NCBI RefSeq assembly: GCF_002257585.1
Contig: NZ_CP022743.1
Location: 4,836,001-4,900,000, forward strand
Source: Mucilaginibacter xinganensis
GTDB lineage: Bacteria > Bacteroidota > Bacteroidia > Sphingobacteriales > Sphingobacteriaceae
Reading direction: 5' to 3'
DNA: 64,000 nt
A model generated the notes under the pieces. It saw only the letters and a list, made by a program, of their open reading frames with translations. It was not told the DNA's origin and did no database searches. Below are positions 60,261 to 63,107 of the stretch, in pieces (the first letter of the stretch is position 1; each line of letters starts with the position of its first letter). The translations under genes were made by a program, and so were the position numbers.

Positions 60261-61637
60261 CTATTTTCCTGGATTAGCCGCAGGCTTACTTTTTCCGCTT
60301 GTTTGAGGTTGATGATGTTTCACATTAACAAGTTTTTGCTTTAACCAATGGGTTAGCCGGTGATGCATGGGCACCAATATTGCTGCTAAAATTACCAGTA
60401 TTACTAACTCAAGTACCGGCAAATGGTTGCTGATCTGCTGTACAAGCGGATGGATCAGCAACGTAATAAATTCAAAAACCAGCAAAAGCGAAGTTACACC
60501 CATAAATTCTATCACCTTTGGGTGCGTGTGGCTTTTGCTTAACACTAATAATATTAAAAAGAAGAACGGGATAAAGACGGCAATGGCTATCAATTGCAGG
60601 TTAAAGATCCGTTTTTCAGATTCGCGTTTTTCTTCTTCTCTAATTTCCTCCTGCCTGGTAGTTTCGTTAAAACTTAAGGTCTGGATCTGTTTTATTCTCT
60701 CAGCATTAAACATGCTGTCTTTGGCAGCGTTCGCGATTTTAAGATACCTTAACTCCAGGTGTTCATTTTTACCGGAATAAGTATGCGCCAGCAGGTCGCT
60801 GGCATTAAAAATACCTTCTGCATATTGGCTCTTATTTGCGGCATCAAGCGCGTAGTCGGCATAAACAATGCTTGAATCAGCCTGTTCCGCCTTTTTGTAC
60901 AACCGGGCGATGCTGTTATAGGTATCGGCCAATCCGCTTTTATCGTTGTTTTTAATGGCATATTGTACGCTCAATCTATAATAATCAAGCGCCAGATCTT
61001 TATGCCCCATTTTATAATTGATATCCCCTAAAATTGACAACGTATTCTGCAATGTTGTTTGATCGTTCATTGCCTGTTGAATAGTATAGGCTTGCATTTC
61101 AAAATTCAACGCAGAATCTATCTTGTTAAGTTTAATGTAGCAATTGCCGATATTTGAAAGAATAGCGCTTAAACTCTTCCGGTCATGAATTGACTCAGCA
61201 ATTGTTTTGGCCTTGAAATGATACTTTAAGGCTTTGTTATTGTCGTTTTGATCTGAGTAGATAATGCCTATATTATTCAGGCTTGCCAACTCGCCGGACA
61301 GGTCTTTAATCTCCTCCCTTATTTTCAAAGAGGCAAGAAAAACCGAAAGCGCCTTATCATATTTTCCATGCTGCATCAACACAACGCCCAGCCTGTTCAG
61401 GCAATCGCCTTCGCCCTTACTGTAATTAATGGTTCTTGAAATATCAAGTCCCTGTTGGGCATAAATCAAAGCACTGTCGGGCCGCACTGATTGTACAAGA
61501 AGGCTCCGCTTTACAAGTAGCCTTACTTTCAGCGTGTCGCCACCGGGAGATTCAGCATAAAATTTTACCGAATTAATAACATTTACCCGCCCGCATAAAA
61601 AATTAAAAAGAAAGCATAGAAAAAGAATAAAACCCAT
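60261..61637 (-). CDS. TPR-repeat membrane protein without output domain
   Basis: A 458-residue protein with an N-terminal hydrophobic stretch (signal or anchor, about 1-14), then about seven tetratricopeptide repeats (e.g. A-L-S-V-F-L-A-S-L-K-I-R, G-N-C-Y-I-K-L-N-K-I-D-S-A-L) to residue 300, a charged coiled linker (E-E-I-R-E-E-E-K-R-E-S-E-K-R) and three hydrophobic helices at 343-430. In Bacteroidota such TPR parts often precede a histidine kinase; here the kinase is replaced by the membrane segment and a short basic tail. A scaffold or sensor function is inferred. A small repeat-peptide gene lies 80 bases upstream on the same strand. Confidence 0.82.
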   Translation of the reverse strand: MGFILFLCFLFNFLCGRVNVINSVKFYAESPGGDTLKVRLLVKRSLLVQSVRPDSALIYAQQGLDISRTINYSKGEGDCLNRLGVVLMQHGKYDKALSVFLASLKIREEIKDLSGELASLNNIGIIYSDQNDNNKALKYHFKAKTIAESIHDRKSLSAILSNIGNCYIKLNKIDSALNFEMQAYTIQQAMNDQTTLQNTLSILGDINYKMGHKDLALDYYRLSVQYAIKNNDKSGLADTYNSIARLYKKAEQADSSIVYADYALDAANKSQYAEGIFNASDLLAHTYSGKNEHLELRYLKIANAAKDSMFNAERIKQIQTLSFNETTRQEEIREEEKRESEKRIFNLQLIAIAVFIPFFFLILLVLSKSHTHPKVIEFMGVTSLLLVFEFITLLIHPLVQQISNHLPVLELVILVILAAILVPMHHRLTHWLKQKLVNVKHHQPQTSGKSKPAANPGK

Positions 61638-61718
61638 TTTCCGGTTAAATAAGTGGATGAGTTAAACAGTTAAGGGATGAAAAAGACGGGCAAATTAGCA
61701 CAAAGCAGCTTTACCTGC

Positions 61719-61892
61719 TTATTCAGCTTGCGCTTCCGGTTTCTCCTCATCAGGCGCAGCTGCCTCATTTTCTGCCGTGGCATCAATTTCAGGGGCATTG
61801 TCCAACCCTATGGGCGTACTTTTGTCTTTAAATCCTATAGGTGTATTTTTATCAATAAAACTACTCCGGGTATCATCACCAAGCTCTGCCAT
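61719..61892 (-). CDS. 57-residue acidic peptide with DKxTPIG repeat
   Basis: An ATG at 61892 opens a 57-codon frame: M-A-E-L-G-D-D-T-R-S, then two copies of a short unit, D-K-N-T-P-I-G-F and D-K-S-T-P-I-G-L, and an acidic Ala/Glu/Pro-rich tail (A-A-A-P-D-E-E-K-P-E-A-Q). There is no signal peptide. The repeat and biased composition argue for a real gene over the competing frame on the plus strand, which is Cys/Arg/Phe-rich and typical of an antisense reading. No family was recognised. It lies upstream of the TPR gene on the same strand. Confidence 0.6.
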   Translation of the reverse strand: MAELGDDTRSSFIDKNTPIGFKDKSTPIGLDNAPEIDATAENEAAAPDEEKPEAQAE

Positions 61893-62140
61893 GATCTTAA
61901 GAATTTAATAATTTACCAATATTAGTATTCTATAAAAATAAGAATATTCATATTAAGAAACAATATTTTGTATTTATTTAATAAACAGAAATACAGTCAT
62001 AACGTTTTATCCCTCAAGGTAGTAGCTAAGCTAATTTAATAACTATAACAATGATCTTCTTTTAAATAACATGGTTATTTAAAAGCCCGGTAGCAAAAAA
62101 ATATTAATACATTAACACAACCGACAAATATAAATATCCA

Positions 62141-62758
62141 TCATATTTGAACCTGGTGAATAGGGTACACAAATTCTAGGTAAAGGAAGAAAAATGCGAT
62201 AGCCATGGCCAGGATGATAAGACCAATAACCGCTGAATTGATTTTTATCCCGTCTTTGCTGATTTCGAACGTATTGCTACCTGACAAAGATATATCCGTT
62301 TCAGTTTTTTCGTCGGCAGAAGTATTTGTAATTGTTGAGATAGCATCGGATCCCTGCGAGACGATTGCCCTTTTGGCATCATGATGTTTTCGCAGCATCT
62401 CGTGGGTAAATTCGAACTGTTTATAGGATAAAAACAAACCGGTAAGCACAATAAATATTACTACAATAAATATAATCATTGACATAATGTATTGTAAATT
62501 AAACACCTTTCGCCAGTGTTTATTTATAAACTCAGCTTGCTTCAAATTTATCTCCCGGATTTTCTTATTGTAAACTTCATCTGTATAATTAACTGAAGCC
62601 GATGAGGCATGATCGTAATCTTCGGAATCCCGATCCATCAATGAAAGTGCGGCATTTGGCTGCATTTTATTGTTTGACTGTGCAGGGTTAGCGCTTGAAA
62701 TGACAGCGTTAAAAAAGCAAACAAAAAATATTAAAATTAATTTCGCCCCAGTCATCAT
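62141..62758 (-). CDS. Hypothetical exported membrane protein
   Basis: A 205-residue protein with a signal peptide (M-M-T-G-A-K-L-I-L-I-F-F-V-C-F-F), a polar region, a membrane helix near 90-112 (M-S-M-I-I-F-I-V-V-I-F-I-V-L-T-G-L-F), a cytoplasmic part with F-E-I-S-K-D-G-I-K-I-N-S, and a last helix near 175-195. No family was recognised. It follows a Pro-rich exported protein by 13 bases on the same strand, so the two probably share a transcript and an envelope task. Confidence 0.65.
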   Translation of the reverse strand: MMTGAKLILIFFVCFFNAVISSANPAQSNNKMQPNAALSLMDRDSEDYDHASSASVNYTDEVYNKKIREINLKQAEFINKHWRKVFNLQYIMSMIIFIVVIFIVLTGLFLSYKQFEFTHEMLRKHHDAKRAIVSQGSDAISTITNTSADEKTETDISLSGSNTFEISKDGIKINSAVIGLIILAMAIAFFFLYLEFVYPIHQVQI

Positions 62759-62771
62759 AAGCTACTTATAT

Positions 62772-63107
62772 TTATTTTAAAAATATTTTATAATATTTTT
62801 TTCTGACTTTTAACAATCCAAAAGGATTACCCGACGGCACGAGTTTCGCTTCCTTTTTACGATAAAGGGTAAAGTCGCGGTCATTTAATATATGTGCTAT
62901 TTTCAATAAATAGTCGTTAGCTTCTTTGAGCACCGCAACGGTATCTGCAACATTAACAGGAACATCCATCTGCATTTTAGGCATAGGCATCGTTGCGGGA
63001 GGTGGCGGTGGCGTCGGTGGTGGGGATTGAGGCGCGCGATGCTGTTGAGCCTTTACAACTACAATGCCCAATACAAAAGCACCTGTTATTACAAATTTAA
63101 TTTTCAT
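62772..63107 (-). CDS. Hypothetical Pro-rich exported protein
   Basis: A 111-residue protein with a signal peptide (M-K-I-K-F-V-I-T-G-A-F-V-L-G-I-V-V-V-K-A), a Pro-rich run (about 26-45, P-P-P-T-P-P-P-P-P), a Met-rich stretch (M-P-M-P-K-M-Q-M) and a helical, basic C-terminal part ending K-K-Y-Y-K-I-F. The Met-rich run could bind Cu(I), a speculation. No family was recognised. It is the upstream gene of the pair with the 205-residue membrane protein. Confidence 0.6.
   Translation of the reverse strand: MKIKFVITGAFVLGIVVVKAQQHRAPQSPPPTPPPPPATMPMPKMQMDVPVNVADTVAVLKEANDYLLKIAHILNDRDFTLYRKKEAKLVPSGNPFGLLKVRKKYYKIFLK

Follow-up and report, generated by a model that had tools for sequence, protein, structure and literature searches.

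Pairing a peptide gene with a TPR gene is a standard way of signalling by peptides in Firmicutes. Known RRNPP pairs have the receptor gene first. In Rap-Phr pairs, an Asp in the receptor groove is bridged by salt contact to a basic pheromone residue and an Asn in the groove holds the backbone (e.g., Asp192 and Asn225 of RapJ; PMC3601965), and repeated pheromones within one propeptide occur in Rap systems of phages (PMC11343458). Exceptions to the Sec-type export leader of most RRNPP(A) propeptides are SHP, PrgQ, and SIP (PMC10075063, PMC6565748), of which SIP is described as a leaderless secreted peptide signal in Streptococcus (PMC6565748). The large RRNPP survey, going by its available text, covered complete genomes of Firmicutes only (PMC10075063), and the titles and abstract openings of the literature on peptide-TPR signalling in Bacteroidota (mostly without subscription papers) contained no such pair. 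The closest described systems in Bacteroidota itself are TPR-bearing sensors such as the FimS-type histidine kinase, and a group of TPR-three-TM proteins of Sphingobacteriaceae and a few other Bacteroidia (30-39% identity to the protein studied here), hereafter paralogs.

The window analyzed here is a 64,000-nucleotide stretch of Mucilaginibacter xinganensis DNA, in which a small peptide gene adjoins the gene of a TPR membrane protein. The features of the locus are as follows.

61933..61963, minus strand: promoter-like element TTG-N20-TATTTTTA (relaxed pattern scan)
61719..61892, minus strand: small acidic protein of 57 aa (translation, cross-species comparison)
61833..61853, minus strand: motif copy 1, DKNTPIG (translation, pattern searches)
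61806..61826, minus strand: motif copy 2, DKSTPIG (translation, pattern searches)
61638..61718, minus strand: gap of 81 nt from the peptide stop to the TPR start, without a promoter-like site (promoter-pattern scan)
60261..61637, minus strand: TPR membrane protein of 458 aa (Pfam TPR_12, E = 1.2e-22; AlphaFold2; hydropathy)
60711..61541, minus strand: TPR superhelix, residues 33-309 (AlphaFold2 model, alignment)
60324..60611, minus strand: three-TM C-terminal domain, residues 343-438, also in paralogs (alignment, fold search)

The 57-codon frame at 61719-61892 on the minus strand is open from ATG to stop, with the product MAELGDDTRSSFIDKNTPIGFKDKSTPIGLDNAPEIDATAENEAAAPDEEKPEAQAE, and it is a real gene. 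The first-pass annotation had described a minus-strand frame of this length with two near-identical DKxTPIG units and an acidic tail, and all of these are present as claimed; the units are spaced by 27 nt (nine residues), and the product, which is probably unstructured, has 15 D/E against 5 K/R residues with the acidic part in its tail. A degenerate motif pattern with one mismatch allowed had two matches in the window, both in the peptide, against a mean of 0.14 in shuffled windows, where two matches were reached in 1 of 100 shuffles. Across the whole 5.3 Mb genome, the exact degenerate motif likewise had two matches, both in this peptide. The peptide is previously unnamed; searches of Pfam, NCBIfam, and PADLOC at E <= 1 gave nothing for it, and five motif strings had no occurrence in the literature searched by text (mostly without subscription papers).

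A protein search of 149 genomes of the genus detected the peptide (E <= 0.01) in six, its own genome included, and four weak matches of this search carried DKNTSMG twice each and also lay upstream of a TPR gene; orthologous loci were therefore gathered with the TPR protein as query. TPR orthologs with 55-75% identity were found in 29 of the 149 Mucilaginibacter genomes (that of the window included) and in two further genomes from two other genera of the family (399 genomes sampled), with a gap in the identities of homologues below the orthologs down to 39%. Upstream DNA was available for 30 of these 31 orthologs, the contig of the remaining one (genome G105) starting at the gene. Directly upstream of the TPR gene and on the same strand, each of the 30 loci has an ORF of 49-73 residues with at least one motif copy, 27-160 nt ahead of the TPR start codon. 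The same test yielded no motif ORF in the 17 paralog frames with enough upstream DNA (from a set of 19 frames in 16 loci, two frames having less than 70 nt upstream) and none at 1,280 places drawn at random from the neighbourhoods, with the peptides of the pair itself excluded. A DNA pattern that allows N, S, or G as the third residue matched 38 places in the 149 genus genomes, 35 of them in the paired ORF by hand count. The peptide and the TPR gene are strictly linked, and the position just upstream of a same-strand TPR gene, which had been noted for the window alone, is thus kept at every ortholog locus with upstream DNA. The homologues anticipated in Sphingobacteriaceae exist in Mucilaginibacter and two other genera, but not in the family at large. 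Among 395 genomes sampled from the class, three relatives besides the TPR protein of the window were found at E <= 1e-60, one of them belonging to the family, and as these reach just 32-34% identity, there is no ortholog outside the family in this sample. The pair is accessory, with the TPR ortholog present in 29 of 149 genus genomes.

The motif consensus is DKNT(S/P)(M/I)G, of which a regular expression retrieved 53 copies in the 30 loci (D in 45, K in 52, N in 47, T in 49, S/P in 51, M/I in 51, and G in 50 copies), with one copy in eleven loci, two in fifteen, and three in four. A few copies are degenerate (e.g., NNNTQTG, SKNTSTG); the motif of L022 is DKNTFMG, and the three copies of L034 end in D. 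The motif lies near the N-terminus in most peptides and forms the last residues in L024, L030, L032, L034, and L035, with the acidic part preceding it in L024, L030, and L032. The sequence outside the motif is unconserved and mostly acidic, the net charge being -2 to -13 in 29 of the 30 peptides (the exception, L036, is at +3). The motif is the sole widely conserved part of the peptide, and the variable copy number, place, and flanking sequence are indicative that conservation applies to a short linear motif and not to a domain. From sequence and hydropathy reading, no N-terminal hydrophobic leader is visible in any of the 30 peptides; their most hydrophobic 12-residue stretch (1.78, in L010) is at an internal position.

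We then estimated selection in 15 pairwise comparisons among six peptides of equal length, and dN/dS was 0.09-0.27 in 14 of them; the fifteenth pair, L014/L015, gave 0.51 from very few substitutions (dS 0.028). The window peptide against L009 had a dN of 0.38 and a dS of 2.0, which is saturated. Between motif copies within one gene, 65 synonymous codon differences stand against 23 non-synonymous ones. Judging from these substitutions, the peptide frame is under purifying selection across species. The first-pass annotation would have been refuted by a lack of homologues or by a non-coding pattern of substitution; homologues were found and the dN/dS is coding-like, and its suggestion that repeat number might vary with the frame kept open was borne out by genes with 1, 2, or 3 copies.

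Pattern searches for related peptides elsewhere covered the 149 genus genomes and 351 family genomes; matches away from the pair were inspected at 32 loci, nine, and four further places, and the other matches of the genus search were judged by the third codon. Those read and not part of the pair were long proteins, frames opposite longer ones, or short frames not adjoining a TPR gene, and they were set aside. A DKLTSIG segment was found in 21 of the 32 loci read (L041, L043-L048, L050-L053, L056, L059-L061, L063-L067, L069), which share the conserved segment DKLTSIGFYE of a protein that we take to be formiminoglutamase; this match is considered a coincidence because position 3 is Leu. DKHTSMG, at two places, lies outside the pair within what is presumably the Obg GTPase, and another off-pair match is presumably a histidine kinase.

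The 458-aa partner begins with a signal-peptide-like helix (residues 2-28), followed by the TPR region of about seven hairpins at a 40-residue spacing, by a long helix, and by three TM helices with a short tail behind them. Its AlphaFold2 model has a mean pLDDT of 87 and a pTM of 0.72. From the sequence, hydropathy, the charges around the hydrophobic helices, and this model, we predict a TPR domain that faces away from the cytoplasm and a short tail that lies within it. The TPR model was top-ranked with LGN by Foldseek, and VIA-align superposed it on TSK (Z 28.1, rmsd 3.2, 276 aligned), APPBP2 (27.1, 3.4, 297), Rap-phi3T with RGHTS (25.9, 4.7, 291), RapF-PhrF (24.1, 4.5, 292), Rap-phi105 with ERPVGT (23.5, 5.4, 298), NprR-NprX (22.7, 4.1, 283), and AimR (19.9, 5.5, 258). 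As TPR folds are alike and many non-signalling proteins fit just as well, TSK and APPBP2 ranking above Rap and LGN leading in Foldseek, these scores show a peptide-binding type of fold and not kinship with Rap. The TPR region matched the HK_Porph_FimS model with E = 1.5e-13 and 49.9 bits, far below the cut-off of 600, and in this it resembles the FimS-type histidine kinases; unlike these, the protein has no Pfam kinase domain match in its 458 aa, ends in three TM helices, and is accompanied by a motif peptide. With the paralogs it shares the architecture and the TM residues E389, P397, and P423, but its orthologs differ from them in having the motif peptide and different groove residues. A fold search of the three-TM domain against the PDB returned no match at E <= 0.001. 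As side observations, E389, P397, and P423 are invariant in all 48 aligned orthologs and paralogs, and H396, H425, and H426 are present in 90% or more of those sequences. Two to four paralogs are clustered in G131:C22, G251:C44, and G136:C35 (L092, L073, and L077), where no motif peptide was found wherever upstream sequence was present.

The TPR positions 2, 5, 9, 12, 13, 33, and 34 are described, in the available text of the source, as the most variable and ligand-facing ones, and in HOP positions 2, 5, 6, 9, 12, and 13 contact peptides (PMC1261162). We compared 22 of the 31 orthologs with 18 of the 19 paralog frames (L081 left out) over five hairpins of clear register; the orthologs left out were the near-copies L014, L018, L022, L023, L027, and L032, as well as L028 and two sequences that are broken or truncated (L035 and L036). 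A residue was called ortholog-specific when present in at least 90% of orthologs and at most 25% of paralogs. Such residues occupy 10 of 25 sites at positions 2, 5, 9, 12, and 13 versus 13 of 145 elsewhere (one-sided Fisher p = 2.7e-4), and with position 6 added 13 of 30 versus 10 of 140 (p = 4.6e-6), p-values that are indicative given the kinship of the orthologs, the dependence among sites, and a register table viewed beforehand. The five ligand positions were applied after that table had been viewed and later confirmed in PMC1261162. Other thresholds gave p = 8.8e-5 to 0.0041 in the five-position test, and a comparison of helix A with helix B, which makes no use of the published positions, showed no significant enrichment (p = 0.21). 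Conservation among orthologs as such is alike in the groove (12 of 25) and outside (65 of 145), and the groove positions of paralogs are rarely conserved (1 of 25 at 70%, versus 30 of 145 elsewhere). The ortholog-specific groove residues are 85 (V), 88 (W; M in the window), 125 (I), 165 (N), 198 (N), 201 (S), 205 (D), 208 (Y), 238 (D), and 241 (N), with Asp205, Asp238, Asn165, and Asn241 in all 22 orthologs tested. The orthologs thus fix positions that generally vary in TPRs, as would be expected with one shared ligand, and this comparison of alignments indirectly supports the motif as a constant ligand of the TPR groove. The conserved groove may also serve a ligand other than the peptide. Columns 118, 121, and 122 (groove) and 146 correlate with the motif type, PI or SM. 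We rejected this as evidence of motif-groove coevolution: the trees need 2-3 type changes and give 1-2 independent pairs, so that the correlation is inseparable from shared descent and proves nothing.

Compared with RRNPP(A) systems (Rap-Phr, NprR-NprX, AimR-AimP), the locus is alike in that a small peptide gene adjoins a TPR receptor gene and, at the level of the modelled fold, in the peptide-binding TPR fold of the putative receptor. The motif is short and polar, with a Lys among its first residues, and in this it resembles Phr peptides, which are described as carrying a basic residue (PMC3601965); the repeated units within one propeptide resemble those reported for Rap systems (PMC11343458). 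The motif Lys is almost invariant and the groove offers Asp205, Asp238, Asn165, and Asn241, which may be comparable to Rap-Phr. The locus is unlike RRNPP(A) in that the receptor is predicted not to be cytoplasmic, given its signal-peptide-like start and three hydrophobic C-terminal helices, shows neither an HTH nor a phosphatase bundle, with no Pfam match at E <= 1 to an HTH or Rap-type effector domain, and belongs to a Bacteroidota host. The peptide gene comes first here, the motif is not fixed at the C-terminus, and none of the 30 propeptides has a visible Sec-type export leader, unlike most RRNPP(A) systems.

We propose, at what we judge to be even odds, that the motif is the ligand of the TPR protein, recognised in the concave groove, and that the pair works like RRNPP without being a member. 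The first-pass idea that the peptide could be a partner of the TPR protein is supported in part. Conceivably, the short protein would present 1-3 copies of the linear motif DKNT(P/S)(I/M)G; the peptide, or motif-bearing fragments of it, might get to the periplasmic side through some export route or when sibling cells lyse, bind the membrane-anchored TPR domain, and thereby pass a signal through the three-TM domain to an output. A more specific version is tentative and, in our opinion, somewhat doubtful, namely a Gram-negative counterpart of RRNPP in which a leaderless, multi-copy signal released by Mucilaginibacter cells is sensed directly in the periplasm by the membrane-anchored TPR receptor, the two genes travelling as a unit found at many chromosomal places. 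By analogy with the repeats of phage Rap systems and with SIP, a signal would be compatible both with the repeats and with the absent leader. The weakest point of the proposal is the encounter of the peptide with an outward-facing TPR domain, since with no visible signal peptide and the TPR domain predicted outside, the partners may not meet without an export step.

If the peptide does not leave the cell, another explanation applies, which we hold to be unlikely though it survives best among the alternatives: the small protein would stay cytoplasmic, either as an accessory subunit at the cytoplasmic loop or the often basic C-terminal tail of the TPR protein or as a multivalent scaffold for a motif-reading third protein. 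The missing leader and the acidic charge of nearly all peptides agree with this, as do the C-tails of the orthologs, which are more basic (median +4, n=29) than those of paralogs (+1, n=19; Mann-Whitney p = 0.004). However, 6 of the 29 ortholog tails have a charge of 0 or below (among them L012, which the end of its contig truncates), and the peptide of L036 is positively charged, so a basic tail as partner of the acidic peptide is not universal. Moreover, the tails look unconserved while the motif is conserved, and the groove enrichment points to the opposite side of the membrane.

A conserved, repeated core in a variable context, in a two-gene unit with a multi-TM membrane protein, could also belong to a multi-core precursor from which a modified or antibacterial peptide of ribosomal origin is made, with the membrane protein as immunity or processing factor; the TM part even has a very weak match to the NCBIfam Bf21 immunity family (E = 0.088). 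We regard this as quite improbable from the gene neighbourhoods, of which 17 were compared (the last 14 kb of the window and 16 regions of 18-19.5 kb). The TPR cluster is the only one common to all 17, the next commonest being in 7, and the search for a conserved third gene (maturase, transporter, or kinase) came to nothing. There is thus no shared maturase, protease, or transporter and, within these 14-19.5 kb, no adjacent modifying enzyme or dedicated transporter of the RiPP kind; the peptide, in addition, has no conserved leader, carries the motif at either end, and lacks any match to the family models searched. The automatic gene picker missed the peptide in four neighbourhoods, the window's included, and a targeted ORF search found all four. 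Neighbour genes are shared by near relatives only: the window and L112 share an AsmA-like gene, a response regulator, and others, some of which are in L108, and L100, L101, and L104 share a set of their own. Near the pair are also a 205-aa protein with hydrophobic stretches, which adjoins it (62141-62758, minus strand), and a 111-aa proline-rich protein (62772-63107, minus strand), both below the Pfam cut-off and with no relative in the other 16 neighbourhoods.

The promoter scan, which compared 160 nt upstream of the peptide with 160 nt after it, found TTG-N18-22-TAnnTTT(A/G) in 24 of 30 loci, 67-126 nt before the peptide start codon, and in 0 of 30 after the peptide; shuffled upstream sequences had on average 0.9 sites per 30, with a maximum of 4 in 300 rounds, the relaxed pattern having been set after viewing the sequences and the control being a single-base shuffle. 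The element of the window fits what we take to be the Bacteroidota promoter type TTTG / TAnnTTTG. A strict two-box pattern had fewer matches in the window than expected by chance, and none at the peptide gene. The best explanation is that the peptide and TPR genes form one two-gene unit, for which the promoter-like site ahead of the pair and the lack of a third gene common to the 17 neighbourhoods both speak. The spacer of many loci (e.g., L011-L016, L018, L019, L021, L022, L026, L027, and L070) has an NYTATCAG-like stretch after the TTG box, absent in the window's locus, which is possibly a regulator site; its strict form TTTGnTTAYCW was found in 8 of 30 loci. 

The constant position upstream of the TPR gene, always on the same strand and 27-160 nt before its start, would suit a leader peptide that acts in cis, its translation controlling the TPR gene. 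A leader working by stalling or attenuation should stay at a fixed place relative to the next gene, whereas here 1-3 motif copies lie towards the start or right at the end, and synonymous codons are freely exchanged between copies in the same gene (the 65 versus 23 differences above), so that we find leader control highly unlikely. A chance open frame without function, for which its shortness and lack of a family-model match might speak, is refuted in practice by the low dN/dS in 14 of 15 pairs and by linkage at 30 of 30 loci against none of the random places.

If the ligand reading is true, the pair would give Bacteroidota a simple example of peptide sensing, with one seven-residue motif and an outward-facing groove, in which the sequence already defines the motif, its partner, and the residues to change.
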